This document shows, piece after piece, positions 13,953 through 62,024 of a stretch of DNA of 64,000 bases; the stretch's first letter is position 1, and every line of letters starts with the position of its first letter. The DNA comes from Methanosphaera sp. ISO3-F5 (GTDB taxonomy: Archaea; Methanobacteriota; Methanobacteria; Methanobacteriales; Methanobacteriaceae): positions 1 to 64,000 of the forward strand of contig NZ_CP118754.2 in NCBI RefSeq assembly GCF_034480035.2, read 5' to 3'. A program made the position numbers and the translations under genes. The notes beneath the pieces are model-generated. The model saw nothing but the letters and a program-made list of their open reading frames with translations, ran no database searches and was not told where the DNA came from.

Positions 13953-15221
13953 ATATTTTTAGGGGTCTAGATTATTCGTCCTTCAGAAAGCATTTGTAAG
14001 TCTGTTTTTGTTGTGTATCCTTGATTAATTATTAAGGATGCTAATAATACAGTTAGTAATGTTGTTTTTTAACGGATTCTGTTGTATATTTGTGGAAATG
14101 TTTTAAATTTAGTCCTTCTTTAAGGAATTTAAAAAAGTCTTCGATATGGCTTCTTACATATTTAATTCTTTTTCTTTTGATTATGTTTTTACAAAATGAG
14201 TTTGTTAATTTTATGAATTTACTTTTATTTTCTTTATCTTTTTTGTTTTGTCTGAAATATTCTAATGGACAGGTTAATGCGTTGTTTAGTTTTTCTATGT
14301 TGAAATTGGATTTAGTGAGGATTAATGGTTGTATGTGGTATTTTTTTAAGCCTATTTCATAGTTTTCATAACTATAATATCCTCTATCAGCTAGTATTTT
14401 ATCATTGTAGTGTAATAGGTGGTGTTTTTTTCATTTGTTCTAGTATTTCTGGGAATATTTGACTGTCGTGGGGTGAACCTGGGTGTATTATGAATAAAAC
14501 AGGCATCATGGTATTGTAATCTAGTACAAAAGTTCCTTTAAAGCCTATATAGAAGCCAATACTTGTTCCATGACCCCATTTTGGATCTTTATTTTCAAAT
14601 TTTTCTTGGAAATCTTCTTACTATCAAAATTATAATCAACATCCAATGGAGTTGCATCAAGTAAATAAGTATGTGATTGAACTCTATTATTTCTATTAAG
14701 ATATCTGAGTATTGTATTGATAGTTTTTTCTATTGTTTGGGCAGAAAAACGTCCAATCAGTTCTGTAACCTGAGAAACTGATAACACAGTTTTAACATTA
14801 AAAAAAGATTTAACTTCTGGTTTCTTATTTATCTCATCAATGATGTATTAAACCTTTAAATTAAAAAATTAACTAATAAAAATAACTTTTAAAGTAAAAT
14901 TAAATTTATTCAATGGTTTTATACCATTTGAAGCTATTATTTGTTGGATTATTCTAGAATCAATAATATTAAATATTTCTTCTAACAAACTAGTATATGG
15001 GTTGGAATTATCGAAATTTAAACCTAATAACATTTAACTCACTATTAATATGTTTATTAAAGGTTTTATTTAAATATTTCGATAATAAAAACCTTTCATA
15101 AAAATCCAAGTAAAAATCAAATGTATTATTTTTAACCAAGATTAATTAAATGTTTAATACTAAAAAATCAGCGTTTTTAGGTCGTAAAAAAATATTAATT
15201 TTCTAGACCCCTAAAAACATA
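13952..15221. mobile_element. Decayed insertion sequence with 16-bp terminal inverted repeats
   Basis: The 16-mer TTTTTAGGGGTCTAGA at 13956-13971 reappears inverted at 15202-15217. Similarity of the flanking ATAT bases suggests slightly longer ends. Between them lies one transposase gene on the minus strand whose TAG stop is inside the left repeat. The element is about 1.27 kb. I could not identify a target duplication. Confidence 0.75.
13967..15033 (-). pseudogene. DDE transposase, multiple frameshifts
   Basis: Conceptual translation starts MLLGLNFDNSNPYTSLLEEI and breaks near 14890. It resumes through VLSVSQVTELIGRFSAQTIE and HTYLLDATPLDVDYNFDSKK, breaks near 14600, and goes on with GTSIGFYIGFKGTFVLDYNT..HPGSPHDSQIFPEILEQMKK. 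After another shift near 14410 it reads DKILADRGYYSYENYEIGLK..RSHIEDFFKFLKEGLNLKHF, and after one more near 14070 ends MLSEGRII. LLDATPLDV, LADRGYYS and the late acidic region fit a DDE_Tnp_1/IS4-IS5-like transposase. At least four lesions make it inactive. Confidence 0.75.
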
Positions 15222-28140: not shown

Positions 28141-28746
28141 ATGTCTTATATTTATATTGATGAAAGTGGAGATTTAGGAAACAAAGAGGTTAGTTCCAAA
28201 TATTTTGTTATTGCAGCTATAGAAGTAAAAGACTCAAAAAAATTAGATAGAATCATAACAAAAATACGACGGAATTCCAAAAAGTATATTAATACTACTA
28301 ATGAAATTAAAGGTGCTACACTTCCAAAAAATTTCAAGAAAAAGATTCTTAAAAAAGTAAACTCTCTTGATAATAATATCTTCATTATAGTTTTCAATAA
28401 AGAGAATAGATATAAATTAAAACAAAATAATAATAACATGGTATATGATGAATTATCCTCAGAATTAGCAAAAATTATTAAAATTACATCTCCCACTTTT
28501 ATATTTGTGGATAAATCAAAAAATAAAAAAGAAGACATTATAATTTATAATAAAAAGTTTAATAATAATTTAATGAATTTTAAGAAATATCCTGTTGATA
28601 TAAAACACGTAAATTCTCTTCATTATAAGGGATTACAAATAGTGGATATAATAGCTTGGTCAGCATTTCAGAAATATGAACATAAAAATGATGAATTTAT
28701 TGAATTATTAGATAATGTATCTTTAAAATTAGTATTTGAAGAATGA
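28141..28746 (+). CDS. DUF3800 protein
   Basis: A 201-aa protein of the DUF3800 family, which adopts an RNase H-like fold. The N-terminal motif MSYIYIDESGDLGNKE with its Asp/Glu pair, FVIAAIEV, a central FIFVDKSKNKKE and the C-terminal LHYKGLQIVDIIAWSAFQ are the typical landmarks. A nuclease function and links to phage defence or mobile elements are often suggested, but the role is unproven. A GTG three codons upstream (28132) is an alternative start; the ATG directly before SYIYIDESG matches family starts. It stands alone between the antiporter gene and its duplicate. Confidence 0.8.
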   Translation: MSYIYIDESGDLGNKEVSSKYFVIAAIEVKDSKKLDRIITKIRRNSKKYINTTNEIKGATLPKNFKKKILKKVNSLDNNIFIIVFNKENRYKLKQNNNNMVYDELSSELAKIIKITSPTFIFVDKSKNKKEDIIIYNKKFNNNLMNFKKYPVDIKHVNSLHYKGLQIVDIIAWSAFQKYEHKNDEFIELLDNVSLKLVFEE

Positions 28747-38556: not shown

Positions 38557-40120
38557 TTGCTCCTCCAATGGATGCGGTATTATAGTTTAAATTACTATGA
38601 GTGATGGTTATTTTTCCATATGCTCCAGTGTTACGTATTGCTCCACCAAAATCGTGGGCTTTGTTATTATTTAGTGTGGATTGTGTTATGGTTATTTCTC
38701 CTTCGTTGTTTATTGCACCTCCTCCTGAACTGATTGGTCCTGTTGCTTTGTTGTTGTTTAATGTGCTGTTTCCTATGAATAGGTCCCCTTCGTTGTATAT
38801 TGCTCCCCCTGAACTGATTGGTCCTGTTGCTTTGTTGTTGTTTATTATTGTGTTTGTAATGTTTAGTTCATCATCGTTACTTATTGCTCCACCGTCAGAT
38901 GCTTCATTGTACTTTAATTTACTATTTTTTAAAAGTATTATACCATAAAAGTTGTATATAGCGCCTCCAACACCTGCATGGTTATGGTATAATTGGGAAT
39001 TTGTTATAGTATTTGTTTCGTAATTTCCCTCGTTGTACAGTACGCCCCCAATATCTGCATTGTTATTGTTTAATTTACTTTGTGAAATGGTTATTTTTGC
39101 TTTGTTAACTATTGCTCCTCCATGGGGAGCGGTGTTGTTTTCTAGGGTACTGTCTGTCATGGTTAATGTTCCATCGTTGTATATTGCTCCTCCTCCTGGA
39201 TAATAATCGGTTCCTTTGGCTCTGTTATTGTTTAGAGTGGAGTTGCTTATTGTTAATGTTCCATCGTTGTATATTGCTCCCCCTTTAGAATAGTTGCTTT
39301 CTTCGGCTCTGTTATTGTTTAATGTGCTGTTTCCTATGAATAGGTTCCCTTCGTTGTATATTGCTCCCCCTTCAGAAAATTTGGTTCCTTTGGCTCTGTT
39401 ATTGTTTAATGTGCTGTTTATTATTGATATGTTTCCTTCGTTGTATATTGCTCCCCCTTTAGAATGTTCGGTTCCTTTGGCTCTGTTATTGTTTAATGTG
39501 CTGTTTATTATTGATATGTTTCCTTCGTTATATATGGCTCCACCTACACTTTCTTCTCCTGATACTTTATTATAGCACAGGGAGCTTCGGGTTATATTTA
39601 GTTTTCCTTTATTATATATTGCTGCACCTCTATCTGCTTGGCATTTTACTATTTTCAAGTTTTTAATATTGACAGACTGTGTTTCTCCTATTTTTAGGAA
39701 TTGATATTTTTGTTGTCCGTTTATTGTTTTCCAGTTACCATTAATTGTAACCTCTTTTATTGCCTTATTAATTATAGTATTATCGGCTAGTTTTATGTCT
39801 GCTTTAATGTTAAGTGTTAATGTCTTGTATTCTCTGCTTTTCAATGTATTCTGGAGTGTTTTATAGTTATTAATGTTCACAGTTTTACTTGCACTTTTTA
39901 AGGTTCTATACTCCCTTGATTGTTTTTTTATTGTTTTGTCTACGCTCTGGGTGGTGTTTGCCTGATTATTACTGTTAATGTCTGTTGTATGGGTGGTTAT
40001 TGTGTTACTTGTATCTTCATGTTTTGTTGTAGTGTTTGTTTCGGATGCACATGCTATTCCTACAAGAAGTAGTGTTAATAGGGTTAATATGATTATTTTT
40101 TTCATTGCTTTTTTTATCAT
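38557..40120 (-). CDS. Adhesin-like protein, exon 1 (upstream of a group II intron)
   Basis: The 5' part of the intron-split ALP. It has a signal peptide (residues 1-25, LTLLTLLLVGIACA), a Thr/Asn-rich linker, then beta-helix repeats GGAIYNEG(N/D)...STLNNN(R/K)A with near-identical DNA units of about 84 bases repeated four or more times between 39180 and 39550. The exon ends in codons for GGA followed by a single A at 38557. Without splicing, translation would run into the intron and stop at 38525 after SATSNSLSLL. The start MIKKAMKK has an alternative Met at residue 6. Confidence 0.88.
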
Positions 40121-40254
40121 AATTTTTCATTTCCTCCCATTAGTTTTGGTTAAATAATAATTAGTATATTTTTATTGCTTAAATAGTTTTCTTATTGTTT
40201 GTTTTTTGAATATTTCTAAAAAAAGTGGATAGGTGGTGGGGAGAATTATTTTTT

Positions 40255-40690
40255 TCAGGGGCTTTGTTCTATTGTTAGGTGTGTGTTGTTTTCCTTGAAT
40301 AAGTCTATGTTATTGTCTATTATTGCAAGGGGTATGATTCCTTCAGGTATTTCCTGATGATCATCTTCATAGTATATTGCTATTGAGTTTGTAGGCTTAT
40401 AGTATGCTATGTATCCTACTTCGTATGTGCTTGTACGTGGAGTATTAGCTGTTAGTGTACTGGGTAGTTCAGCATATTTTTCTCTGCCGAACAAATCTTT
40501 TAAGTCCAGTTGTAATGGTAATAACTGTAGGAATTCATCTGATGTGGGATTATTTATCATATGTGCTGTTGTTTCTTGGTTGTTTATTTTTAGTTTTATT
40601 GTTGTATTGTTTTTCAATGTTTGCTGCTGCTGTTGTGGTTAATGTTAATAATAGAAGTATTAAGATTAGTGTAATGTTAACTTTTTTCAT
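40255..40690 (-). pseudogene. Secreted cyclophilin-like domain protein, frameshift after the signal peptide
   Basis: The body (40255-40617) is a cyclophilin-like domain of about 120 aa (PF18050 type): IKLKINNQETTAHMINNPTS, LLPLQLDLKDLFGREKYAEL, STYEVGYIAYYKPTNSIAIY, EIPEGIIPLAIID. Just upstream, in another frame, an ATG at 40690 starts a convincing signal peptide, MKKVNITLILILLLLTLTTT-AAA. The two join after a one-base change near 40625, next to a GCAGCAGCA run. No good start serves the body alone (TTG at 40617). Either it is inactivated or the sequence has an indel. Family function is unknown. Confidence 0.65.
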
Positions 40691-40828
40691 ATGGTGTTTT
40701 TCTCCAATATTTTTTTTGTATATGTGTGGTTTTATTTGTTTCTTTTAATATAATTATTTGTTTTTGAGTATAAAGGGTAATCATTGTATGTGTTTATTTA
40801 TTGTTCTACTGGTTGTTTCTATGTTCTT

Positions 40829-40966
40829 GTGCTACATGTAATATGTTGTGCTACATTTTTTTATAGTATGGTGCCACTTATTCTTTTCGTGCTACAATTT
40901 AATACTTATAAATTATTTATTTTAGTCCGTTTATTATTTTTATGAAAAAAATATTAAACAGGCTAA
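40829..40966. repeat. GTGCTAC cluster followed by stem element copy 3
   Basis: GTGCTAC at 40829, 40848 and 40889, GTGCCAC at 40871. Then AGTCCGTTT...AAACAGGCTA at 40921-40966. The gap 40691-41109 holds no gene. Confidence 0.65.
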
Positions 40967-41109
40967 CATATTAAACAAATCCTGATTTCAAGAAAAGTAT
41001 GAATATCTGAAAATATACTATAAAAATTATATTCAAAGCGTGTTTAACTTAAAAAAAATAGTAATAAGGTGGATTACAGTTCCACCAATAATAATAAAAG
41101 AGAATTTTT

Positions 41110-42990
41110 TTAGTATCCATACCAGTAGTTATATCGTTCTGTTTCACTCATTTTACAGTATGTAATATCCGCCTTAAATGGCGTGTACCCACTTATCAAT
41201 GAAGTTTCTGCCCCTGTTTTATACTTTGGATTAACAGTTCTGGTGATAATGTTACCTCTGTTGTTTTTGAAATAGAATGTCACTTTAATAATTTTATTAA
41301 TTGGAGGATACTCTAGACCTCTTTCATCAATCTCTGCATACACTCCCGGATTATATTGAGCATATTCAGTTTCGTAAATAGTGCAAAATGGGTCACCATT
41401 AATGAATTTTGTAACCGGATTTCTATATATTGGTAAAGTAACAACTTTGTATTTGTCTGTTACTGTAAAAGATTTTTGAACAGATGATCTGATATAGTTA
41501 ACATTTCCATTGTACGATACTGTTACTTTGTTTGTTCCAGGAGTTGTTGTTTTATATTTATAAGTGTATTTTCCGTAATTGTCCGTTTTTGTCTTGTATT
41601 GTTTACCGTTGATGTTTAGTATTAGTTGTGTGTTTTTTAGTATTTTTCCTGTTTCGTCTGTGAATTTACCCGTGATTGTCACAGTATTTCCCTTGTTTAC
41701 AGTTGGGATGTTGTTTATTGTTATCCTGGTTTTTTGTTGTTCTATCTTTGTTTTCTGGTTTGATTTAATGTTAATATTTACATTATTTGCTTTGTTGTAT
41801 ACTGCTCCGCCGTATCTGCTATATTTGTATTTTGTTGGTGTGACACTTATTTTAGTGTTTTGTCCTTTGTCACATACAAAATTGTACCTGTTACTAGCAC
41901 TGTTATAATTGAATGTTCCGGTTATTATACTTGCTTTAGATTTTTGGTTGTATATTGCGCCTCCATAGGTGGCATGGTTATTGGTGAAATTACTGTTTAC
42001 TCGAATAGTTCGTGCTTCGCTCTCTATGAATATTGCTCATCCTCTTGGCGCTGTATTGTTTGTGAACTTGGCTGATATTTTAATGTTCCTATTTGTGTCA
42101 TAAGTTTTTTCTATTATTGCTCCGCCGTACTTGTTTGCCTTGTTATTGTTAAAGTTTGTGCCCTTTATTGTTAATGTTCCAATATTGTATAGTGCTCCAC
42201 CATTTTGTGCTTTATTGTTGTTTATTTGGCTGTTACTGATTGTCATTGTTTCCTCGTTATCTATTGCACCACCATCTGTTGCTGTATTACTGTATAGTTT
42301 AGTGTTAGTTATGGTTAGTTTTCCATAATTTATTATTGCAGCACCATATTTTGCCTTGTTATTGTGTAATTTGGAATCTTTGATGATTAGGGTTGCACTA
42401 TTGTGTATGGATCCTCCTGATGATTCTGCTTTATTATTGTTTAGGTTACACTTGGTTATGGTGAGTTTACCAGTATTACTTATGGCACCTCCTTCAAGTG
42501 AATAGCAGTTGATTATATTCAGATTTTTTATGGTTGCGGTGGTTCTTGATGGAATATTCAGGAATTGGTATTTCTTGTTTCCAGATATTGTTTTATCATT
42601 ACCATTTATTGTAAGTTTAGTAATTTTGTCGTTTATTATTGTGTCTTCAGTTAGTTTTATGTTGGATTTTATGTTAAGGGTTAGTGTTTCATATTCATCG
42701 CTGGTTAGTGTGTCGTATAGTGTTTGGTAGTTGTTCACGTTTATTGTTTTACTTGCTTTTTTAGTTGTCTTGTTAAGGGTGTTTTGTTTTTTTATTTCTT
42801 TATTATCTTGTTTTATTTGTGTTTCCATGTTTTTTGTTATGCTTTGTTCTTTGATGTTCATAGTGTCTGTACTTGGCTGTGTATTGTGTGTTGTAGTATC
42901 TGCGGATATTTCTGTTGCACTTGCAATTCCTACAAGCAGTAACGTTAATATTAGTAGTATGAATAACTTTTTATTGATTTTGTTAATCAT
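41110..42990 (-). pseudogene. Adhesin-like protein with one internal TGA stop
   Basis: A 626-codon ALP frame broken at a single place. The N-terminal part has a signal peptide (LILTLLLVGIASA) and beta-helix repeats ending FTNNTAPRG, then TGA at 42037-42039. The same frame continues with AIFIESEARTIRVNSNFTNN..GGAIYN, one Ig-like repeat (VTITGKFTDETGKILKNTQL) and a distinctive C-terminus rich in Tyr (ITYCKMSETERYNYWYGY). In repeats of this kind the position is GGA GGA GCA, so TGA is a one-base change of GGA (Gly). Probably a recent nonsense mutation; internal re-start is unlikely to yield a secreted protein. Confidence 0.85.
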
Positions 42991-43262
42991 TATTGGTCCT
43001 CCTTTTGTATTTTATTTATTCTATATTTATTGGTTTATTATTTCTTTTAATATAATTTTATTGTTGATTTACGGTATTGGTGTATGTGTAATTAGTTAAA
43101 CTGTGCTACATTTAAGTGTTTTTTATAGGCTAGAATTATGTCTTCTACAATAATTTCTTTATAGAATATAATGTTGTAACTACTTAGAAGAAATGTATTA
43201 AATAGAAATTCTAAAAAAATAAGTTAAAAAAAATGGGGGTGGGAGATTAGTTAAAATCGGAT

Positions 43263-45605
43263 TTATTTTACTTTGAATGTGGTTTTAGCATTACTGGTCT
43301 TGTAGTTTTTGTTTCCAGGGTATATTACTGTTACTTTAATGCTTCCTTTATTGCTTGCTTTATAGTTATAAGTGTATACTCCTTTATTATTGGTTTTAGC
43401 TGTTACGGTTTTCGTGTTGATCTTGATTTTTATCTTAGTGTTTTTGAGTATTGTTCCCTTGTTGTCTGTTAGTTTACCTGTTATTTTTATTGTTTTGCCC
43501 TTGGTGGTTGTGCTTATCTTGTTGACTGTTATTTTTATTGCTCTTGCAAAGGTTTTGAATGTTGTTTTCTTGGTAACTGTCTGGTAGTACTTGTTTCCCT
43601 GGTATGTTACTGTCACAGTACTTGTTCCTACCTTGTTGGCTGTGATTATTGTTTTGTATATTCCTTTGTTGTCTGTTTTGGTGTTGTATATTTTGTTGTT
43701 TACTTTTATTTTGATTTTTGCATTTTTTATTATGTTATTGTAATTGTCTTTGAGTTTTCCTGTGATTGTTACTTTTTGTTTGTATTGTTTTTGTTTGTAT
43801 GTTGGTATTGTTAGTCTGGTTTTGCTTGCAGATACTTTGAATGTGGTTTTATTTGTTGTTTTTTGGTAATCTTTGTTTCCTTTATAGGTAACTGTTATGT
43901 TATTTGTACCTATTATTGATGCTTTAATTAAATATTTATAGATTCCTTCGTTATTGGTTCTTGTGTTGAACGTTTTGTTGTTTACTTTTATTTGTATTGT
44001 GGCGTTTTTGATTAGTTTTCCATTTTTGTCTTTGAGTTTTCCCGTGATTGTTACTTTTTGTTTGTATTGTTTTTGTTTATATGTTGGTATTGTTAGTCTG
44101 GTTTCTGTTTGGTTATCATTTACTATATTGTCTGCTATGTAACAATTTTTTAATGTTTCTATTTGTCCGGGGTAGTAAGTGTTTGTAAAGTTTATATTGT
44201 TTTCTAAAGTAAGTGGAGTATTATTAACTAGAATGTTATTGTTTGTTATGGTGGAATTTATTAAATTGTTTTGTATGAATCTGTTCTGTATGATGTTGAT
44301 TTTTGTTGCATTGTTGTATATTGCTGATCCGTTAAGTGCAATGTTTTTTATGAAAATGTTAGAATTAATAGAGTTTTTTGTGTAATTATGTCCAAATACT
44401 GCTATTGCTCCTCCGGATTCGTTTGCACTATTTTCTATAAAAGTATTATTTGTAATTGTCATATTGTTTGCTGTGCATACTGCACCACCATCTTTTGCAC
44501 TGTTTTGATAAAAAAGATTATTTTCTAATATTAATTTATTACTGTCTACTGCACCACCAGACTCATATGCCTGATTTTTTTCGAAAGTGGAATTAATTAT
44601 TTCCAAATATTTGGTATTGCATATTGCACCACCATACCATGCCCAGTTATTCTTAAATGAGCAGTTACATAGGTATAAATATTTCTCATTGTATATTGCC
44701 CCACCCATTGAATATTCATATGGAACTTGATTATTGTCAAATATTGTGTTATATATAGACATGTTGTTAAGATTTCCAATTGCTCCACCAAAATTAACAA
44801 GAGCCATGTTATTTTTGAAAATTGAATTATTGATTACTGCATTTCCCTCATTTTCTATTGCTGCGCCAGACCATGTTACCTGATTATCAATAAATGTGGT
44901 GTTATTAACTGTTAAATTAGCATGATTATAGATGGCTCCACCAATGCCCTCGTCGACCAGGTTATTGCCTAATATTGAATCATAAATGGACAGATTTCCA
45001 TAATTTATGATTGCATTCATCCAAAGACTACTGTATTTTAGAGTCACGTTTTCTAATATTAATTCACCATAATTTGAGAATGCTCCATAAAAACTATCAG
45101 GTTGAAAGCCATAATTGTAGAGTTCCAGGTTTTTAATATTAACACAACTTTTATTTGAAATATTTAGAAACGAATGTTTATGATATGCGTTAAATTTTTT
45201 GTTGTTTCCATTGATAGTTAAATGGGATATTGATTCGCTGAGTGTTATTGATTCAATGAATTTAATGTCTGAATTTATGTTAATTGTTAGATTATCATAC
45301 TTGTCACTTGTTAATATGTTTTTTAGTGGTTTAAAATAATTTACAGTATATGTGTTACTTTCTGTTTTATATTTTTTATTGGATTTGTTTTCTTTATTTA
45401 TGGATACTTCTTCTTTCTTGGGTGTTATATTAGTATTACCTGTTTTTATAATTGTTTTATCGTTCAGTGCTACTTTTTTTTGTGTTGTATCAGTATTGCT
45501 TGTATCATTGGATACTTTTGTTGCATTTACTGCACTGGTTAGTATTACTGTAACTAATAACAACAATAAAATGGTTTTAATATGTTTGTTATTCATTTTA
45601 ATCAA
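43263..45605 (-). CDS. Adhesin-like protein (780 aa)
   Basis: An intact surface ALP. Signal peptide 1-29 (LLLLLVTVILTSAVNA). Beta-helix ~95-490 with repeats such as GGAIYN.ANLTVNNTTFIDNQ and GGAIGNLNNMSIYNTIFDNN. Three Ig-like repeats of ~93 aa follow; two begin with the same TRLTIPTYKQKQYKQKVTIT (~501 and ~596). The third (~681, TFARAIKITVNKISTTTKGK) is nearly identical in DNA to the matching repeat of the intron-split ALP at 35230-35330. No anchor motif. A second Met at residue 4 is a possible start. GTGCTAC occurs once at 43103, outside the gene. Confidence 0.88.
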   Translation of the reverse strand: MIKMNNKHIKTILLLLLVTVILTSAVNATKVSNDTSNTDTTQKKVALNDKTIIKTGNTNITPKKEEVSINKENKSNKKYKTESNTYTVNYFKPLKNILTSDKYDNLTININSDIKFIESITLSESISHLTINGNNKKFNAYHKHSFLNISNKSCVNIKNLELYNYGFQPDSFYGAFSNYGELILENVTLKYSSLWMNAIINYGNLSIYDSILGNNLVDEGIGGAIYNHANLTVNNTTFIDNQVTWSGAAIENEGNAVINNSIFKNNMALVNFGGAIGNLNNMSIYNTIFDNNQVPYEYSMGGAIYNEKYLYLCNCSFKNNWAWYGGAICNTKYLEIINSTFEKNQAYESGGAVDSNKLILENNLFYQNSAKDGGAVCTANNMTITNNTFIENSANESGGAIAVFGHNYTKNSINSNIFIKNIALNGSAIYNNATKINIIQNRFIQNNLINSTITNNNILVNNTPLTLENNINFTNTYYPGQIETLKNCYIADNIVNDNQTETRLTIPTYKQKQYKQKVTITGKLKDKNGKLIKNATIQIKVNNKTFNTRTNNEGIYKYLIKASIIGTNNITVTYKGNKDYQKTTNKTTFKVSASKTRLTIPTYKQKQYKQKVTITGKLKDNYNNIIKNAKIKIKVNNKIYNTKTDNKGIYKTIITANKVGTSTVTVTYQGNKYYQTVTKKTTFKTFARAIKITVNKISTTTKGKTIKITGKLTDNKGTILKNTKIKIKINTKTVTAKTNNKGVYTYNYKASNKGSIKVTVIYPGNKNYKTSNAKTTFKVK

Positions 45606-45833
45606 CTAATTTTCTTTATATACTATAATATATAATGTTTAGTTTTATATAATAATTTATGTCTGTTTATGATGTTATTATCGTTATGTATTAATGTTTT
45701 TTCTTTGAAATGACTTGTGATTTAGGTAGTATTCATGTTATTGGGTATTGGTTGTATTTGATAATGGGGTATTTGTTTGGTGATTTTGGTTTTGTGTTGT
45801 TTTTTTATGATTATATTTTTTTGTCTATTTTTT

Positions 45834-46147
45834 GTGCTACAGTTATATTTTGTGCTACAATATGGTTAAAAATGGTGTGCTACATATATATTTCGTAGCA
45901 CATTTTTAATATTTTGTGCTACTTTATTGTTTTGTGCTACACTTTTTTCTTCAAAATTATTTTTCCCTTACCGTTGGTAGTGAAAAATTATATAATATTG
46001 ATTTTTATTATATTTTTTGTGCTACACCTGTTAATGTGTGCTACATATTTATGTGCTACATTTATTCTTTGTGCTACATTTTTTTCTATTATATTCTAAA
46101 ATTTTAGTCTGTTTAAAATTTTATATTAAAAATTTAAAAACAGCCTT
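45834..46147. repeat. Largest GTGCTAC cluster plus stem element copy 4
   Basis: GTGCTAC on the plus strand at 45834, 45852, 45877, 45916, 45934, 46019, 46038, 46053 and 46071, and once inverted (GTAGCAC) at 45895. Many neighbours are 15-19 bases apart. The element AGTCTGTTT...AAACAGCCT follows at 46103-46147. The whole gap 45606-46296 has no gene. Confidence 0.75.
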
Positions 46148-46296
46148 CCATCACTACTGTCTTCGTTAAATTAGGTATAGTTATCTGTGTAATTTTTGTT
46201 AATATGAAAATATGAAATAATTAATATATGAAAATAAAATAAGATTTTATTTTACAATATAAAAAAAATTAGTATTGTTAGGATTATTTTTATTCT

Positions 46297-46683
46297 TTAT
46301 TTTCTTTGCATTACTTCAATTTGGTATCCGTCCGGATCTGTTAGGAAGTAATATTCTTTTACTCCTTCGGTTAATCCTTTGAATGGTCCTACAGTATAAC
46401 CCTTTTTCAGGTGTTCTTCTCGTGCTTGTTCCAGGTCATCCACGTAAACTGCTATGTGACCATAGCCTGTTCCTATATCGTATGGTTTTTCTGGATCATA
46501 ATTGTATGTTAGTTCTAGTTCAAAGTCTGATTCTCCATCTTTCAGGTATACTAGTGTGAATTTTCCTTCTGGTTTTTCTACTCGTCTTGATTCTTTCATG
46601 CCTAGTGCTTCAGCATAGAATTTCAGTGAACGTTCTAGGTCATATACTCTTATCATTTCATGTACCATTTTACAATGTACCAA
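46297..46683 (-). CDS. Glyoxalase I-like protein (lactoylglutathione lyase family)
   Basis: A ~128-aa vicinal-oxygen-chelate fold protein. It matches GloA closely: MIRVYDLERSLKFYAEALGM, FTLVYLKDG..FELELTYNYD, GTGYGHIAVYVDDLEQAREE and YYFLTDPDGYQIEVMQ. Metal ligands expected are the early His (VHEMIRV), Glu in ELELTYN, His in GHIAVYV and Glu in IEVMQ. It likely isomerises the hemithioacetal of methylglyoxal with some thiol; the thiol in this organism is unknown. GTGAT four bases before a TTG at 46683 favours that start; GTG 46692 and ATG 46671 are alternatives. It stands alone. Confidence 0.85.
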   Translation of the reverse strand: MVHCKMVHEMIRVYDLERSLKFYAEALGMKESRRVEKPEGKFTLVYLKDGESDFELELTYNYDPEKPYDIGTGYGHIAVYVDDLEQAREEHLKKGYTVGPFKGLTEGVKEYYFLTDPDGYQIEVMQRK

Positions 46684-46811
46684 TTTTATCACCCATTATT
46701 TTTTTTGTATTATATACTATTTTTTTGTGTACAATCTTATACATCTTTTGTCCGTGTATTACTGTTTTGTATATATCTATTTATATGATATGACGTAATT
46801 ATTATCTGTAT

Positions 46812-47030
46812 TCAGTTTCTTCTTTGTCGTAATTCTTCTACTGACCTGTAGTGTCCTTTTCTTCTCTCGTTTAATTCATTTTTATCTATAATTCCCAGTT
46901 CAAATTCTTTTAAATCATTAGCATATTGTAGTTCTACATAATTTAGGTTCAGGTCACGATGTAAATCCCAGATATGACTCACATGGTCTAATATTTCTCT
47001 TAATACATATTCGTCGCTTCCACCAAACAT
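46812..47030 (-). CDS. Small hypothetical protein
   Basis: A 72-aa, highly charged, predicted all-helical protein (LREILDHVSHIWDLHRDLNL, ELNERRKGHYRSVEELRQRR). No family recognised. It has a strong AGGAGG ribosome-binding site eight bases before the ATG, which is better than most genes here and supports translation. Confidence 0.6.
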   Translation of the reverse strand: MFGGSDEYVLREILDHVSHIWDLHRDLNLNYVELQYANDLKEFELGIIDKNELNERRKGHYRSVEELRQRRN

Positions 47031-47194
47031 AACTAATATCCTCCTATAATATATCTGTTTGTCTTTTATTCTTTCTATTATTATAGTATAATTATGAATA
47101 AACTATTTGATAGAACATTAATAATATGAAAAGTATATATCTTAATACTTAGAAAGATTTAAATTAAGAAATAAGGATTTAAGGGGGATTAAAA

Positions 47195-48604
47195 ATGAAA
47201 TATAGAAATATATTAACATTGTTAGTAATTTTGTCATTAATAATTTTAATTCTACCATCATTTTCTGCAAAAGATGAAGCAAATAATGATAAAACAGGCA
47301 CTAACCCTATAATGGATGCTATAGATGAAACAATGACAAATATAAATAATTTCTTCAACGCTGGTGGCGATGAAACAATTGATGTTCATAGTTATAAGGA
47401 ATTAGCAAAGGTTATAGCTAATAAAACAAAAGAAAAAAGCGAGAAAACCTATGTAATTAACTTACAAGATGGTGATTATAATATCACGAAAAAAATATAT
47501 TGTGGAAGCAGGGATGTATCCTTCAAAATTAATGGTAACGGCCATACTATTGATGGAAACGGGAACAAACAGTTCATGGATGTTAAGGGAAACTTAGAAA
47601 TTAATAATTTAAGAATAATAAACACAAAGAATCAGACTAATGAATCTGGGGCTATTTGTATGGTTTCCAGTTCTGATTTGAAAATAGATAACTGTACCTT
47701 TGAAAACAATCATGGAGACATTAAGGGTGGAGCAATTACCAGTCGTGGAAAGACTACTATTACTAACACAGTGTTTGTTAACAATACCTGTGAATTGACT
47801 GGTGGAGCCATATGGAGTACTGGTGAGTATGGTGGAACTTTAATACTTAAGAACAATACCTTTAGACAAAATAATGCAAATGCAAAGAATGATCATGAAA
47901 GAACTTCAGTAGTATACATGGTATCTAAGGGAAATAATGTTATTGAAAACAATGTCTTCGAGAACAATACTGGTAGATGTATACATTCCTTCATGTACAC
48001 TAGCTCTAAGGTAGTGAATAATACTTTCCGGAACAATAATTTAACCTTTAAGGAAGTAATTCGTGGAGGAGTAATTGATAATTATGAATCTGATATCACT
48101 ATTCAGGATAATATTTTCATCAATGATAATACTAATGGTGAACTTAGGGGTGGATTATTATATCATGAAGTTGGACATTTAGATTTTATAAATAATACTA
48201 TTTGTGATACTCATACTCAGACTGGTCATATTACTAATGAAACGTGTAGTAAGGGTGGATTAATCTTTAATCGTAATGCTACTGCAAATATTGAGGAAAA
48301 TACTTTTAATAATACGGTGAATGCTAACCTCACTTGGGGTGGTGTTATATATAATAATATAGGTAATATTTCACTTAAAAATAATCAGTTCATAAATAGG
48401 GTGAATGGTGAGCATATTAAGGGTATGGCTATTTATAATGATGTGAATGCTAAGACCTTAATATCTGGTGACAAGTTTGAAACTAAGTATAATGGTTCTA
48501 TTGATACTGAAAATCAGGAGAATAAGTTTATTTATAATTCTGATGTTATAAACAGTGAAGGGCCGGGTACTAGGGGAATAACTGAATATGAGGATGTTTC
48601 CTAG
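47195..48604 (+). CDS. Secreted beta-helix protein (adhesin-like, no Ig repeats)
   Basis: A 469-aa protein with a signal peptide (1-25, LSLIILILPSFSA) and a parallel beta-helix over ~90-450 (GNGHTIDGNG, GGAITSRGKTTITNTVFVNN, GGAIWSTG, NNTFRNNN). Unlike the ALPs nearby it lacks Ig-like repeats, coiled coil and Lys-rich tail, so it may be released or bound by partners. It is transcribed on the plus strand and its DNA is less repetitive, suggesting an older, more diverged member. Pectate-lyase-like folds include enzymes, but no catalytic residues are obvious. Confidence 0.82.
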   Translation: MKYRNILTLLVILSLIILILPSFSAKDEANNDKTGTNPIMDAIDETMTNINNFFNAGGDETIDVHSYKELAKVIANKTKEKSEKTYVINLQDGDYNITKKIYCGSRDVSFKINGNGHTIDGNGNKQFMDVKGNLEINNLRIINTKNQTNESGAICMVSSSDLKIDNCTFENNHGDIKGGAITSRGKTTITNTVFVNNTCELTGGAIWSTGEYGGTLILKNNTFRQNNANAKNDHERTSVVYMVSKGNNVIENNVFENNTGRCIHSFMYTSSKVVNNTFRNNNLTFKEVIRGGVIDNYESDITIQDNIFINDNTNGELRGGLLYHEVGHLDFINNTICDTHTQTGHITNETCSKGGLIFNRNATANIEENTFNNTVNANLTWGGVIYNNIGNISLKNNQFINRVNGEHIKGMAIYNDVNAKTLISGDKFETKYNGSIDTENQENKFIYNSDVINSEGPGTRGITEYEDVS

Positions 48605-48818
48605 TAAACATTTTTTTTCTCTCCCACGCATTTTTTTTCAGCTATTTTTTTTTGGATAGAATTTATTTAATCAATATATTTATTTAGAAGAAGTACGGGG
48701 TTTTTATTTATTATTAAGGTTTATACACTTCTAATTGGAATATAATCAGTATGATTCTAAAAAAAAATATTGTTGAAGGGGGAGGTGAAAAAATGAATAA
48801 AACTAAATATAATTAATC

Positions 48819-49238
48819 TTATTTAGTTAATGCAGTGTTTATATCAGTTACTATCTGATCTACTGTGTTTTGAGAGATTTCTGTAACTTGTGCAGTAGCA
48901 GTTGCATTACTTGCTAAATAATTATCGTCACCGGTAAAGTTAGCAGAAATATTATATTCTCCAGGTACTAAAACACATACTAATACTGGTTCACTGGTGG
49001 TGTTTACTGTGAATGTTTTATTTGCTGCACCAGTTTGAACAAATACTGATACTGTTTTGTTTTCTACAGATTTGTTTGAACTTTGTAGATCTACAAATAC
49101 TGAACCGTTTGATGTACTATTTATGTCTAATGTTGTTTCTTGTTTTAAAAAATCAAACCATCCTGCACTTACGGTACTGACACAACCAAGTACCATTAAT
49201 GCTAATACGGATGCGATGATTATCTTTTTCATATTCAT
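48819..49238 (-). CDS. Small secreted single Ig-like domain protein
   Basis: A 139-aa protein: signal peptide 1-25 (SVLALMVLGCVSTVSA), then one compact beta-sandwich of Ig type (TTLDINSTSNGSVFVDLQSS, VPGEYNISANFTGDDNYLAS, the typical LPxG.Y.I.A.Y.GD..Y..S pattern) and a short helical tail. Rich in Asn-X-Ser/Thr sites for N-glycosylation. Function unknown; it resembles one repeat of an ALP as an independent protein. It is intact. Confidence 0.8.
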   Translation of the reverse strand: MNMKKIIIASVLALMVLGCVSTVSAGWFDFLKQETTLDINSTSNGSVFVDLQSSNKSVENKTVSVFVQTGAANKTFTVNTTSEPVLVCVLVPGEYNISANFTGDDNYLASNATATAQVTEISQNTVDQIVTDINTALTK

Positions 49239-49460
49239 AAATTAATCACCTTAATACGTAATTAATAATTATTTATATGTGGATGGAATATAAATATTTT
49301 GTTGATAAAGTTTCTATTATTTTTAAAAAATAGGGTGTACAAGTTTTTCATACAGAAAAACATTTGGCTAATATCTGTTCTTAAAGATTTAAAATCTTTT
49401 ATGAAACTACTATTGATATAAAAAATATTCTTAACATATTACTATTATAATCATATATTT

Positions 49461-49570
49461 TATTAGTTGTAATTCAAAAACTTTTAAAAAATAAAAGTTT
49501 ATTGTTTCAATTTAAAAAACTTCACATTTTTATGGATTTTATTAGTTGCAATTTAAAAACTTTAATAAAT
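49461..49570. repeat. Short repeats upstream of a broken ATPase gene
   Basis: TATTAGTTGTAATTCAAAAA (49461) and TATTAGTTGCAATTTAAAAA (49540), with a related GTTTCAATTTAAAAAACTT between them (49504). Positioned just ahead of the ATPase start, as with the three repeats at 5277. The rest of 49239-49460 is empty. Confidence 0.5.
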
Positions 49571-49619
49571 ATAATATTTATATAATATATATAATTATCT
49601 TATGTGTGGATGTTCGATT

Positions 49620-50334
49620 ATGGTTAAAAGATTTACATACCTTAATAAACTAGATAAATTAAGGGATACGGAAGAAATTAAAATAATAACAGGAGTTAGA
49701 CGATCTGGTAAAACACACCTTCTCAAAGAATACATGAAAAAATTAAATAAAGAGGGCATACCTGAAGAAAATATAATTTATATTTCTTTTGAATCAAATA
49801 GATATAATCATATCAAGGACGGTATATCTTTAAATAAGTGGGTCTATGAAAAAACAGAGAATGTGGATGGAAAAGTTTATTTATTCTTTGATGAAGTCCA
49901 TAAAGTTAGTAATTGGGAAGAAAGTATTAATGGTTACAGGGTTGATTATGATGCAGATATTTATGTTACTGGATCATATGGGCATAGATCAGGGATTTTA
50001 TTATCTATTCAATGATGAATACAAAAGAAACACTGGCTTTTTAATGGAGAATATTGTTTACTTGGAATTAATAAAAAGAAAATTCAATATTACTATAGGA
50101 AAAATTAATAATTTAGAAGTAGATTTTGTATGTAAACGACCTGGTAAAACGTTCTATGTTCAAGTATCTGAGAGTATAAATGATCCTGTAATTAGAAAAC
50201 GTGAATTCACATCACTAGAAAAAATTAAAGATAACTATCCTAAATATATTATTACTACTGATCAGATTAATTATTCTCACAATGGTATAATACATTTGAA
50301 TATACTTGAATTTCTTAAAAAAGAAAACATATGA
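49620..50334 (+). pseudogene. AAA ATPase (DUF4143 type) with an internal deletion
   Basis: The start matches the AAA_14 family: KLRDTEEIKIITGVRRSGKT (Walker A), HLLKEYMKKLNKEGI, VYLFFDEVHKVSNWEESING (Walker B), DYDADIYVTGS (sensor). Then, at about 49975-49995, the sequence jumps out of frame to DQGFYYLFNDEYKRNTGFLM-ENIVYLELIKRKF and VDFVCKRPGKTFYVQVSESI to a stop at 50334, the end of the DUF4143 region. Roughly 150-200 residues usual for the middle are missing, plus a frameshift. An ATG at 49602 is only ~20 bases from a TATA-like stretch, so 49620 is taken as the original start. Confidence 0.8.
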
Positions 50335-50401
50335 ATTTGAAGTTTTCAAATATTGACTAGTAACTATTATGTTATTGAATTTATGTTACTAATTAAAATT
50401 T

Positions 50402-50720
50402 GTAGCACATTATTTTTTTGTGCTACTATTCATTTTTTATATTTTGTTAGTTTATGTTTTTGAATGTGTTTGATGTATATGTACTTGTTTATTTTCATGA
50501 GTTTTGACATGTCATAAAGAAATATTCAATAAAATTAGTTACATAAAAGATAGTTTAGGGATATGTATTGAAAAGAGAAATAAATTAATCTTAATTATTG
50601 TTAATAGTTATTCCTGTTTCTATTGCTTATTTTGAAATTTCTGTTTATTTGCATGATTTGGAAGAAAAAAACATTCTATGAATGAATTAATAATTAGAGA
50701 TATTGAAAATAAATCGGGAT
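50402..50720 (+). pseudogene. Degenerate copy of the 52.3-52.9 kb region
   Basis: Bases 50402-50510 (GTAGCAC/GTGCTAC hairpin, TTGTTAGTTTATGTTTTTG, GTGTTTGATGTATATGTA) match 52357-52460. Farther on, TTGAAAAGAGAAATAAATT.. at 50568 and AACATTCTATGAATG.. match the start of the gene at 52709, with stops and shifts. This is a decayed duplicate of that gene with its upstream region. 50721-50857 holds nothing recognisable. Confidence 0.6.
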
Positions 50721-50857
50721 ATTGAAGATACTAAATTAAATAATCATACAAGTCTTTTAATTAAAGATGTGAAAGATAATAATTCAAAAACTTTTTATAT
50801 CTAAAAATTGGTAAAAATAGAAAAAGGGAGGATAATAGAAATTTAGTGGTATTTGAT

Positions 50858-51880
50858 TTAAGTTATATGTTTTTTAAATAAAATATATTTATAATATCCT
50901 CCATTTCTAACTAAAACACGTTTAAATATATTACCTGTGGTTCTTTCATGAATATAAATATTTCTATGAGTACCGAGATATTCATAATCTGGTTCACCAA
51001 ACCAGTTACGGCGGATATTTATTTTTTCACCGAATATTGTTTTTCCTACTTTTTTATGATATTTAATTTTTATATTTTTAGTCACTGATTTCATGACTTT
51101 ATTATTTTTTAGATATTCCATTTTTAATTTGTAGTTACCTGAGTTATTGGGCATCTTGTATGTTATTGTTAATAATCCATTTTTGAAGTGTTTAGTTGAT
51201 ATTGTTTTTCCATTAAGTTTGATTCTGACCGTACCGGAGGATATTCTTGTATTTTTATCTAGGATTTTTACTGTTGCTTTAATTTTTTGATTTGGATTAA
51301 TTGTTGAGGGTGCTGTTAGTGTCATAGAATATCTTGGTTTAATTTTAATTTCACCTGTATCTATGGCTGTTCCGTCAGAACCATAGTAATATACTTCATA
51401 TTTGCATGTTCCATAATCTGTGAAGGTAACTCCAAATTTTGTAGTTTTTGATGCTTTCTTTGAATCAATAAAGTCATTACCTGAATATAAATATACATAT
51501 CCTGTATCAGTATATGGATTGAAACCGGATAATTTAACTACTATGTTGGTTTTTTTACTATAAACTACTTTTGAAGCAACTGTGACATCCACGTGTCCGG
51601 AGTATGTTTTTTCTTTTTTTGTTTGATTGTTGATTGAATTTTTATTTATCTGTTTTTTAGAACTATTATCTTTCAGTTTTTTATTGGTAATTGGGTTATT
51701 GTCTGTATTGATTTTTTTTTCAAGGTTTTCTGTCTTTACTATTATTGGATTTTTTGTGGTTTTTACTATTTTTGTATTTTCTATTTTACTATCATTAATT
51801 TTTGTTGCATTAACTATGCCTAGAAGCATTATGGTTATAGCAAGTAGTAATAATAGTTTTGTTATTTTATGGTTTTTCAC
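50858..51880 (-). CDS. Secreted Ig-like protein (340 aa)
   Basis: Signal peptide 1-25 (LLLLLAITIMLLGIVNA), a Lys/Asn-rich linker to ~95, then two Ig-like beta domains (KTNIVVKLSGFNPYTDTGYV..; MTLTAPSTINPNQKIKATVK..RISSGTVRIKLNGKTISTKH), and a basic C-terminal segment with aromatic residues (KTIFGEKINIRRNWFGEPDY..YYKYILFKKHIT). It lacks the beta-helix of full ALPs, like a shortened relative. The frame is intact. The C-terminal segment has some likeness in style to the aromatic tail of the ALP at 41110-42990. Confidence 0.78.
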   Translation of the reverse strand: MKNHKITKLLLLLAITIMLLGIVNATKINDSKIENTKIVKTTKNPIIVKTENLEKKINTDNNPITNKKLKDNSSKKQINKNSINNQTKKEKTYSGHVDVTVASKVVYSKKTNIVVKLSGFNPYTDTGYVYLYSGNDFIDSKKASKTTKFGVTFTDYGTCKYEVYYYGSDGTAIDTGEIKIKPRYSMTLTAPSTINPNQKIKATVKILDKNTRISSGTVRIKLNGKTISTKHFKNGLLTITYKMPNNSGNYKLKMEYLKNNKVMKSVTKNIKIKYHKKVGKTIFGEKINIRRNWFGEPDYEYLGTHRNIYIHERTTGNIFKRVLVRNGGYYKYILFKKHIT

Positions 51881-52356
51881 CTTATTTGCCCCCTATTCCT
51901 TCTTATTATTATTTATAGTGTTATTTTTTTGTTTATAAAAACTTTTACATTGAATAAATAATTTTAAGGGTATGGTTTTATTGGTTGTTTAGTTAGTATT
52001 GGTATTATTTTCCTTTAATTATCATTTATGGGGGTTTTTTAATTTTTTAGTTTTATTTTTTTTATTTTTAAGATTAAATTGGGCTTATTTTGTGTTTATT
52101 CTTTTAATTTTTTATTTTTGTTATAAACTGTTTTATTATTTTTTTATTGTTGTTTTTTTGTCTGGTTTATTTGGTTATGTGTTAAATGACTTATTTTTTG
52201 ATAGGTTTATATATGGGTTTTATTATATATTTACATAGTATTGATTTTGTTTTAGAAAGTTCAGATTTCATGATATAACTCATTTTATTTTTTTAATCAT
52301 GCTGGGATATTTGTTTAATAAGTTTGAGGGCATAACTAGAAATTTTTTTTTAGTTT

Positions 52357-52568
52357 GTAGCACATTGTTTTTTGTGCTACTTTTTTATTTTTTATTTTTT
52401 GTTAGTTTATGTTTTTGGATGTGTTTGATGTATATGTATTTGTTTATTTTTCATGAGTTTTAATATTTTTTTTAGTGATGTTTTGTGTCTTAGGATATTT
52501 TGGTGTTTTGGGTGATAATCTTTTTGGGTATGTTTGTTTTTTTGTGGCACGTTTGTTTTTTGTGCTAC
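52357..52568. repeat. GTAGCAC/GTGCTAC hairpin and further heptamers
   Basis: GTAGCAC (52357) and GTGCTAC (52374) form a perfect 7-bp stem with a 10-base T-rich loop. A second pair is GTGGCAC (52544) and GTGCTAC (52562). The gap 51881-52708 has no convincing gene. Confidence 0.65.
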
Positions 52569-52708
52569 TTTTAATATTTTGTATTTAAATTATCTTTTTG
52601 AAAGTAGTTGATGTATATGTTGTAATTGATTTTTTAGTATAAATTACATTATCTTTGTTTGATATTATCATATACTATTAATTACATAAAGTTATTTAGT
52701 GATAGTTT

Positions 52709-53305
52709 ATGGAAAAGAGAAATAAGTTGATAATTATAGTTTTGTTAATTATTTTCATTGTTCCCGTGGCATATTTCGGATTTTCTTATTATGAGGAGCA
52801 AACATTCTATAATGGAATTAAAGAGATTAGTGATATTGAAAATAAGAGTGATGCTGCAGGTGATGTGGTACGGAACATGACTTCTCCCTCTACGGGTGAT
52901 GTTAAACAGTTTGAGATTGACGCGATTAATACTACTTCTACTGAGATTTTGATGTTGCAGGATTTGAAATCTAAGGTGTTTAAAGAGGAGTTTGTTGATT
53001 TCATTGATATTCAGATAAATCGTTTGAATAGTGAAAATAGAACGTATACTGCAATGTTGGAACAAGCTAATGTTTATGAACAGTATAAAAATGGTCAATT
53101 GGGTGCTTCAAGGGCTTTGTCTTTAATTGAAGATAAAAATGATGAGATTGGTTCTTATGCTAATAGGACTGGTAGTTATAAGGTTGATGCTGATTCGTTT
53201 TTAAGTGTTCATACTGATATGAAGAAACGTTTTAGTGAATTGGGTATTGATGAAGATTTCTTGTATGATCAAATTGAAGAGGTTAAAACGGAATATATAA
53301 AATGA
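52709..53305 (+). CDS. Membrane-anchored hypothetical protein
   Basis: A 198-aa protein with one N-terminal membrane segment (residues 7-26, LIIIVLLIIFIVPVAYFGFS) and an extracytoplasmic helical domain with frequent Asn, Asp and Glu (KVFKEEFVDFIDIQINRLNS, EQANVYEQYKNGQLGASRAL). No cleavage motif follows the hydrophobic stretch, so it probably stays anchored. Family not recognised. A decayed duplicate lies at about 50568-50720. A GTAGCAC/GTGCTAC hairpin starts 12 bases after its stop and might act in transcript ending. Confidence 0.75.
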   Translation: MEKRNKLIIIVLLIIFIVPVAYFGFSYYEEQTFYNGIKEISDIENKSDAAGDVVRNMTSPSTGDVKQFEIDAINTTSTEILMLQDLKSKVFKEEFVDFIDIQINRLNSENRTYTAMLEQANVYEQYKNGQLGASRALSLIEDKNDEIGSYANRTGSYKVDADSFLSVHTDMKKRFSELGIDEDFLYDQIEEVKTEYIK

Positions 53306-53317
53306 TACATTATTTTT

Positions 53318-53386
53318 GTAGCACATTATTTTTGTGTGCTACAGTTTTATTCTTTTTTTGTGGCACAATGTCGTGTTTTGTGGTAC
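53318..53386. repeat. GTAGCAC/GTGCTAC hairpin downstream of a gene
   Basis: GTAGCAC (53318) and GTGCTAC (53336) are perfect inverted repeats with an 11-base loop, followed by GTGGCAC (53360) and GTGGTAC (53380). A tract of nine C lies at 53507-53515 in the same gap. Confidence 0.65.
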
Positions 53387-53544
53387 ATTGTTCTTAGTAG
53401 TCTTATTATTCATTTGGTGTCTATGCTTACTTTGTGTAATATAGTCAGTAATTTTTTCCTGCTAGTTTCATGAGTTATTGAGTATGACTTATTTGTTTTT
53501 TGAATTCCCCCCCCCATTGGTTGTTGATTATTAGTTCTTTATTT

Positions 53545-53931
53545 TTAATTGTGTATGGTTTTAGTTACCTGTTTATTTTCGGTAAATCGTTTGTCTCTTG
53601 TTAGGTGATTTATTGTATATTTGATCCAGTATGTGTATATTTGTGGATATCTGAATGGTATTGTGAAGTGTTGCAATACTTCTTCTAGTTCAGGCACTTC
53701 TACTTTGATGGAGGTAGTTTACTAGTTCTGCTCTTAGGCTACTATCAGCATGTGGAAGTTAAGGGTCTTCTATTCATAGATGATATCCATGTATATGTAG
53801 TTTATATTATTAAATCCTAATTTTTGAATGTTTTCATTTATTTGTAGTATTATTTGTTTGGTTTCATCCAAGTAGTGAGAACATCTTCTTTGGTTTTGCT
53901 TGTGCATATGGGGATGAATCGTCTTTTGCAT
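53545..53931 (-). pseudogene. Decayed gene of unknown family
   Basis: One frame from an ATG at 53931 reads MQKTIHPHMHKQNQRRCSHY-LDETKQIILQINENIQKLGF and NINYIYMDIIYE, then a stop. It goes on with KTLNFHMLIVA, several more stops, KVEVPELEEVLQHFTIPFRY and TINHLTRDKRFTENKQ to a final stop. The frame is kept throughout, with at least four in-frame stops, as expected for an old pseudogene. I do not recognise the family. Confidence 0.45.
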
Positions 53932-54026
53932 CAAATCTATTAGATGAAAGGGAAATATGTTTTAGTAATCATTTAACAAATAATTATATAAATAATTTTA
54001 TAATAAATAATTAAATAGGTGAAACT

Positions 54027-61109: not shown

Positions 61110-62024
61110 TTAAAATAGGTTTAGGTTACTTAGTTCGGATATTGCCTTGTTGTCATTGATTGTTGTATATATGGATGTTGTGCTTAGGTTACTGTGACCT
61201 AATAGGTTTTGTAGCGAGTTTAGGCTTATATTGTTTTCTAGTAGGTATATTGCATGTGCGTGTCTTAGTACGTGTGGTGTTACATAATCAGTATAGTTTG
61301 TATTATATTTTATATCAGTTTTTTTGCAGATGTCTCTTAGCAAGTATCTGACCTGGTTTGTTGTTAATGGCTTGTTATTGTTGTTTCTATATGAGTTTAT
61401 TAGGTATGGGTGATTGTTATGTTCGTTTTGTAGGTATGTTTTTATTTGTTTGTTTAGTTTGTATGGTATTAGTACGTGTCTTGTTTTGCTTCCTTTTCCT
61501 TTTATTGTTAGGATTTTGTTTTTTTCTTCATCTTCTGGTGATAGTTGGTAGTCTGTTACTTTTATGTTTACTAGTTCGTTTACTCTGAGTCCTGTGTAGA
61601 ATAATATTTTCAGTATGATTTCTTCTCTTTGGTCTTTGGTGTTTTCTAATAGTTTTTCCAGGTCTTGTATTGTTATGTATTTTCTGTCGTTGTATTTGTA
61701 TGCTCCTTTGAAGAGTTTGGGTTTGTTTGTTTTTATTTGGCAGTATCTGAGGAAGTATAATACTTTTTTTATGTATTGGTTTATTGTGTAGTTGCTTAGT
61801 TTGTCATTTGTTACGTTGTTTGTTTTTGTCATTAGGTAATTCAGGTATAAGTTGATTATTTTCCTATTATTGTCGTCTGTGATATAGGTGTGGTTGTTGT
61901 TTTTGCACCATCTTATGAAGTTTGAGATTATGATGTTATAATTTTTTTTGGTTGCATTGGATCTTGTGTTAAATTCTATGTTTATGAGATTGTCTTTTTC
62001 TATTAGTAGTTCTTCTATGTTCAT
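61110..62024 (-). CDS. Tyrosine recombinase/integrase
   Basis: A 304-aa tyrosine recombinase. N-terminal SAM-like core-binding domain (~15-100: ATKKNYNIIISNFIRWCKNN), then the catalytic domain with R147 (FYTGLRVNELV), K177 (IKGKGSKTRHV), H251-x2-R254 (TPHVLRHAHA), H277 (LLGHSNLSTT) and the nucleophile Y286 (SIYTTI). All catalytic residues are present. It could be a chromosome-resolving XerA-type enzyme or an element integrase; no attachment site or element boundary is seen nearby. It is divergent from the exporter gene. The upstream gap 60806-61109, to its left, holds no gene. Confidence 0.9.
   Translation of the reverse strand: MNIEELLIEKDNLINIEFNTRSNATKKNYNIIISNFIRWCKNNNHTYITDDNNRKIINLYLNYLMTKTNNVTNDKLSNYTINQYIKKVLYFLRYCQIKTNKPKLFKGAYKYNDRKYITIQDLEKLLENTKDQREEIILKILFYTGLRVNELVNIKVTDYQLSPEDEEKNKILTIKGKGSKTRHVLIPYKLNKQIKTYLQNEHNNHPYLINSYRNNNNKPLTTNQVRYLLRDICKKTDIKYNTNYTDYVTPHVLRHAHAIYLLENNISLNSLQNLLGHSNLSTTSIYTTINDNKAISELSNLNLF

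Follow-up and report, generated by a model that had tools for sequence, protein, structure and literature searches.

Intergenic lattices of a 9-bp dyad on the megaplasmid of Methanosphaera sp. ISO3-F5 as predicted protein-binding sites with a possible role in plasmid maintenance

Results

The window, meaning the whole 64,000-bp stretch of DNA analyzed, corresponds to bases 1 to 64000 of contig C2, the 174,118-bp megaplasmid of Methanosphaera sp. ISO3-F5; window coordinates are therefore also plasmid coordinates. ISO3-F5 is a rumen methanogen with a chromosome and a megaplasmid (assembly of 2,680,162 bp, N50 of 2,506,044; PMC11008217), and its chromosome, contig C1, measures 2,506,044 bp. The window opens with a plasmid-borne gene for an MCM replicative helicase (1 to 1953, plus strand; PF00493, E = 2e-94). 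Directly 3′ of it, an array of three GTGCCAC and two GTGCTAC heptamers occupies positions 2425 to 2539, and four heptamers, one of them GTGCCAC, are found at 40829 to 40895; both arrays are on the plus strand and are kept in the sister strain G010. After a lone intergenic plus-strand copy at 43103 to 43109 comes the main array of the window, at 45834 to 46077, with GTGCTAC in both orientations. It includes five pairs at 18 to 19 bp, and the pair 45877/45895 is in +/- orientation. The earlier note had counted nine direct copies there, which we found, but it missed the inverted copy at 45895, bringing the total to ten. A segment of this array, 45833 to 45964, has a paralogous block at 70353 to 70483 (88.6%); one undetermined base, N, is present at C2 70270, adjoining the 70.3-kb array.

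The remaining clusters of the window are inverted pairs. Those at 50402 to 50426 (GTAGCAC-N11-GTGCTAC), 52357 to 52380 and 52544 to 52568 (GTGGCAC/GTGCTAC) form hairpins, the first lying within a block of about 110 bp that is duplicated at 52354. Terminator-like versions of this hairpin-bearing intergenic block occupy 50399 to 50505, 52354 to 52461 and 52541 to 52845. The last cluster, an inverted pair plus GTGGCAC at 53318 to 53366, begins 13 bp past the stop codon of ORF 52709-53305, and in another genome, G016, sites likewise occur 13 bp past the stop codon of a gene 72% identical to that ORF. Every position listed in the earlier note, that is, all of these clusters and the single copy at 43103, was thus found. 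Its statement that the heptamer clusters only between genes fits the clusters but not all copies, since the singles at 28313, 34553 and 45467 are inside ORFs.

Two sets of genes near the sites were considered and rejected as explanations. The 198-aa product of ORF 52709-53305, which sites flank in two species, has a hydrophobic start resembling a signal peptide or membrane anchor and does not look DNA binding. HxlR-type regulators were considered because one of them adjoins an array in genome G003, but most arrays have no adjacent HxlR gene. At least four related ORFs are present on the plasmid (window 30627 to 30992 and 33477 to 33848; C2 110950 and 146984); that at 146984 matches HxlR-type regulators, and its relatives resemble the same G003 HxlR homologue. 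Elsewhere on C2, the region from 150.9 to 164.9 kb is likely a phage-defence island (BrxL, a GmrSD-like protein, a PAPS-reductase-domain protein and large unknown proteins), and a Cap15-like CBASS effector is encoded at 166164 to 166766.

GTGCTAC occurs 26 times in the window against 2.98 expected, and the maximum of 100 shuffles was 7. The whole of C2 has 84 copies, 78 of which are intergenic; the remaining six are in ORFs of at least 100 aa, each isolated. The observation thus withstood the comparisons with chance and between genes and intergenic DNA that the earlier note had proposed. GTGCCAC, the one-base variant named there, is the chief one, with 18 copies on C2. We then searched the whole genome for direct close pairs, defined as two direct heptamers 4 to 18 bp apart. 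All 27 are on C2, as are the five exact inverted close pairs, with none of either kind on the chromosome; a reversed-pattern control gave no pairs in the genome. The chromosome has 185 single copies (269 in total minus the 84 on C2). In several genomes a longer word, TTGTGCTACA, appeared more frequent on the chromosome than the reversed control word; this was set aside, as its nine chromosomal copies in ISO3-F5 are all in ORFs. Within ISO3-F5, the GTGCTAC arrays are specific to the C2 replicon.

The repeat unit was defined by counting all GT-N3-AC words on C2 in intergenic and coding DNA. TGTGCTACA was found 53 times in intergenic DNA, where 0.19 copies were expected, and was absent from coding DNA; intergenic enrichment was also seen for TGTGCCACA (8 versus 0.12 expected), TGTTCCACA (10 versus 0.35) and TGTACCACA (5 versus 0.34). 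The heptamer is therefore the core of a 9-bp dyad, TGT-N3-ACA, whose preferred form is TGTGCTACA and which occurs on either strand. The flanks, described earlier as pure A/T, are A/T rich but not pure, the core reaching out to TGTGCTACA.

The distances between neighboring sites on C2 are most often 18 bp (n = 24) or 19 bp (n = 8), in line with the spacing of 15 to 19 bp noted earlier, with a second mode at about 39 bp. Degenerate members of the dyad are present in 14 of the 19 gaps of 36 to 62 bp and near exact sites reach about 15 times their density in the remaining intergenic DNA, both figures being descriptive only as the degenerate set was picked after inspection of the arrays. Together, the gap modes and the degenerate members in the longer gaps indicate that the arrays are lattices with a pitch of 18 to 21 bp, and the 18-bp pitch is maintained despite unrelated spacers. 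They do not resemble CRISPR arrays, which have repeats of about 23 to 47 bp and uniform unique spacers, as the units are 9 bp long, the A/T-rich spacers about 9 to 12 bp, and the orientation mixed.

Most of these arrays are also present in the sister strain, with the same genes on either side. Over eight alignable blocks, 56 of 67 ISO3-F5 heptamers are unchanged in G010, compared with 32.4 expected from neighboring 7-mers (z = 6.1), and the reverse-direction test gave a z of 5.9. The two strains differ in array length and neighboring genes, with extra genes between array copies in the sister. One insertion of about 2.6 kb (L054, 15650 to 18250) carries a 608-aa gene and has its junction at the heptamer at C2 115425, and two further ORF insertions abut arrays.

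GTGCTAC pairs are present in 10 of 20 Methanosphaera genomes and abundant only in ISO3-F5 and its sister, and other genera of the family have isolated pairs only. In genome G014 (contig C80, L049), arrays at 1026 to 1127 and 14841 to 14991 lie at the ends of a 13-kb segment with genes for UvrD/PDDEXK, an ADP-ribosylglycohydrolase and a P-type ATPase. Among the matches listed by a first viral scan and a genome scan for triple GTGCTAC, all were coding or GC-rich tandem repeats except one Methanosphaera contig; a second viral scan matched 10 contigs. The open-access literature search returned no paper describing a GTGCTAC repeat, and the ISO3-F5 genome announcement does not mention one (PMC11008217).

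The sites are concentrated around 117 kb, the region from 112.4 to 120.75 kb holding 44 of the 84 in 10% of the intergenic DNA of C2. In the middle of this region is an AT-rich stretch (116815 to 116866), near which an origin-box-like 12-mer, TTACACTTGAAA, lies at 116970 on the plus strand, with an inverted one-mismatch copy at 117000 on the minus strand. Exact TTACACTTGAAA is otherwise clustered only at C1 2505426 to 2505540 (three copies in 115 bp), adjoining a gene for 384 aa at the beginning of C1, which we read as a putative Orc1/Cdc6. We take TTACACTTGAAA to be the Methanothermobacter origin recognition box, for which the open-access literature search gave no confirmation. The segment near 117 kb is likely the replication origin of C2, as judged from these features, although the cumulative GC skew of C2 shows no turn there and lends it no support. 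Primase subunit genes are located at 107978 to 110222. Many arrays are far from the origin-like segment.

The same region encodes several proteins of ribbon-helix-helix (RHH) appearance, an assignment resting chiefly on an N-terminal sequence pattern judged by eye. They include P0004, a 192-aa product of C2 117083 to 117661 that is identical in the sister strain, and P0005, a 324-aa coiled-coil product of 118870 to 119844, neither of which had a Pfam match. Pfam matches were weak for a 48-aa RHH-like ORF (VAPB_antitox, 1.7e-4) and a 137-aa protein (RHH_3, E = 0.012), and the RHH-like candidates had no match in the PDB. P0004 is absent from other Methanosphaera genomes that have a few GTGCTAC pairs, and no relatives of P0004 or P0005 were found in the viral contigs. 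Upstream of the P0005 gene is a separate array of 11-bp iterons with the core TCTTACC (118137 to 118706), 27 of the 30 plasmid copies of this core being located at 118.0 to 118.9 kb. No C2 ORF contains the ParA-type Walker motif KGGxGK[ST], and Pfam scans of about half of the C2 ORFs revealed no motor NTPase of the ParA or ParM type. Likewise, no Rep initiator family was found in the subset of C2 ORFs scanned, in which MCM and primase are present.

Related arrangements built on other words occur elsewhere. P0005-like proteins, with an RHH-like N terminus, a coiled coil and the C terminus MSFMDRILGRYPEDIKELKG or similar, are encoded on other Methanosphaera contigs. In two of these, the plasmid-like contigs G010:C66 and G017:C7, a P0004-like protein of 193 aa is encoded as well (24% identity to P0004 over 179 aa, E = 3e-4, in a single comparison). 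Both contigs carry lattices of TGTAAATACA with spacing modes of 16 to 19 and 38 to 40 bp, and the 9-mer GTATTTACA is found 27 times against 0.21 expected on G017 and 20 times against 0.14 on G010. These lattices flank a gene for an RHH-like protein of 198 to 204 aa, convincing only in G010 and G017, with one weak match elsewhere. Of 20 genomes, 3 have close TGTAAATACA pairs, one such locus being on the ISO3-F5 chromosome; there are none on C2. The chromosomal array (C1:509743-514026) comprises about 49 TGTAAATAC-type sites with 17/39-bp spacing and no adjacent RHH-like gene; it is interrupted by a 463-aa transposase-like ORF, and the sister strain has a shorter version. A viral contig with TGTAAATACA repeats was discarded, as these are a 21-bp coding repeat.

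The P0005-like genes have upstream iterons of their own, with related but different words. Those encoding a GKG-type N terminus (C2; G006 C1) are preceded by TTACC words and those encoding a GTTYGKLG-type N terminus (G006 C38, G010 C66, G010 C178 and G017) by AATATTT/GAAGATTT words; the locus on G018 C140 has no upstream iterons. That the iteron words track the N-terminal type is the best evidence for joint change of the P0005-like proteins and the adjoining arrays.

Discussion

The replicon specificity of the arrays, their dyad, pitch and core conservation, their nearness to the origin-like segment and to RHH-like genes, and the parallel systems are best explained if the C2 arrays are plasmid-specific protein-binding sites for plasmid maintenance, through partition and/or origin pairing or control. 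We give this reading, built on sequence comparison, about an even chance of being right. The binder would be one of the RHH-like proteins, P0004 being the lead candidate. Dimers of this plasmid-encoded protein would occupy the dyads side by side and cooperatively, and the bound lattices would form a nucleoprotein cluster both at the arrays that surround the origin-like segment and at satellite arrays. Such a cluster might mark the plasmid for partition to daughter cells and/or for pairing and control of origins. The interpretation offered in the earlier note was supported in part: among the roles it suggested, that of a protein-binding site agrees with the dyad, the two orientations, the regular pitch, the cores kept while spacers drift, and the same layout with a different word on related plasmids.

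The arrays could also be operators of a plasmid-wide transcription regulator, comparable to omega of pSM19035 or KorB of RK2, that controls neighboring genes, for instance those for adhesin-like proteins and oxidoreductases. Their dispersal between genes, the divergent arrangement of three array-bearing intergenic segments, and the fact that some RHH-type plasmid partition proteins double as repressors (PMC5016525) are consistent with such a function. It is nevertheless unlikely, because 41 of the 78 intergenic sites are in gaps where two genes converge and neither neighbor is expected to have its promoter; the genes flanking the arrays are also functionally unrelated. Activity at the RNA level, as hairpin terminators or a non-coding RNA, appears highly improbable for the arrays in general. 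The four inverted pairs do fold into hairpins that have U-rich tails and are at least about 8 bp long (z of -4 to -6), and the position of one of them just past a stop codon recurs in G016, but direct close pairs outnumber exact inverted ones by 27 to 5, the direct array at 40825 to 40900 folds like its shuffles (z = -0.2), and Rfam gave no match in window 40000 to 54000. Terminator-like hairpins are confined to the few inverted pairs, so that the RNA hairpin module proposed earlier applies to these and not to the direct arrays that form the bulk.

Changes between strains raise two further explanations. Differences in array length, the paralogous blocks and the array-flanked inserted genes, one with its junction at heptamer 115425, might reflect non-adaptive tandem or dispersed repeats that recombination has spread through a gene-poor niche of the plasmid. 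The fast change in array length also fits the microsatellite-like behavior suggested in the earlier note; the better retention of cores than spacers does not. This retention, the 18-bp pitch with unrelated spacers, and the recurrence of this architecture on other contigs with a different word make a non-adaptive origin quite improbable. Alternatively, the heptamer might be the crossover core of a tyrosine recombinase, with arrays flanking exchangeable cassettes. Two integrase-family genes on C2 (window 61110 to 62024 and C2 131547 to 132545), the sister-strain insertion joined at a heptamer and the array-flanked segment in G014 would agree with this. However, only one junction falls on a heptamer, the rest being 50 to 150 bp off or resembling homologous recombination between repeats; the contigs were chosen for carrying arrays, and a lattice of 10 to 16 sites is atypical of crossover sites. 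We consider site-specific recombination very improbable.

Extending the preferred reading, that of protein-binding sites for plasmid maintenance, we tentatively propose, as a somewhat doubtful possibility, that Methanosphaera plasmids use replicon address codes. On each plasmid the lattices would consist of a word particular to it, recognized by RHH-coiled-coil proteins that diverge along with the word, and would make up a ParA-less, multi-locus system of archaeal plasmid centromere and incompatibility; the words would be TGTGCTACA, TGTAAATACA and the P0005-linked ATCTTACC, TGTTACCTC, TGTAATATTT, TGGAATATTT and TGGAAGATTT series. Little is known about plasmid partition in archaea, and a review from 2016 counts among the open questions what archaeal centromeres are and whether they are clustered or dispersed (PMC5120986). 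C2 offers a defined cis-site and few candidate proteins, and related plasmid-like contigs supply natural variants in specificity, which opens this question to simple binding assays and could aid the development of stable vectors for gut methanogens.

Among known systems, the arrays resemble the centromeres of RHH-based bacterial partition systems (ParG/TP228, omega of pSM19035, ParR/parC of R1, pCXC100) in that short direct and inverted sites are arrayed near a maintenance locus, the kind of repeat array typical of type Ib/II being present on C2, and RHH-like genes, with weak or absent Pfam support, adjoin them. They differ in having 9-bp sites at a pitch of 18 to 21 bp across a dozen intergenic loci, in the lack of a ParA-type Walker motif on C2, in the archaeal host and in the long coiled coils of the candidates. 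The archaeal AspA-ParBA (pNOB8) and SegAB systems work with a ParA-type ATPase and with palindromes that are longer (23 bp for AspA) and one or two in number; the sites of C2 are 9 bp long and numerous, and no ParA was detected there. Like iterons of iteron-regulated plasmids, the repeats of C2 are short, plasmid specific and grouped around an origin-like segment; unlike in those plasmids, arrays also occur at a distance, no Rep initiator was detected among the scanned genes, and C2 has MCM, primase and an archaeal origin-box-like 12-mer. The repetition of one replicon-specific site at many intergenic places recalls the KorB operators of RK2. KorB sites are single 13-bp palindromes, many of them at promoters; the C2 sites form lattices, half of them between convergent genes. 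A dispersed 9-bp word with A/T-rich flanks is also reminiscent of DNA uptake sequences, but those are genome-wide and often in genes, whereas the C2 word is intergenic and clustered in one replicon, with no close pairs on the chromosome. As no ParA-type motif was found on C2 and the binder is putative, we do not assign the arrays to a known partition type; with such a binder, they would work like a plasmid centromere or an iteron array.
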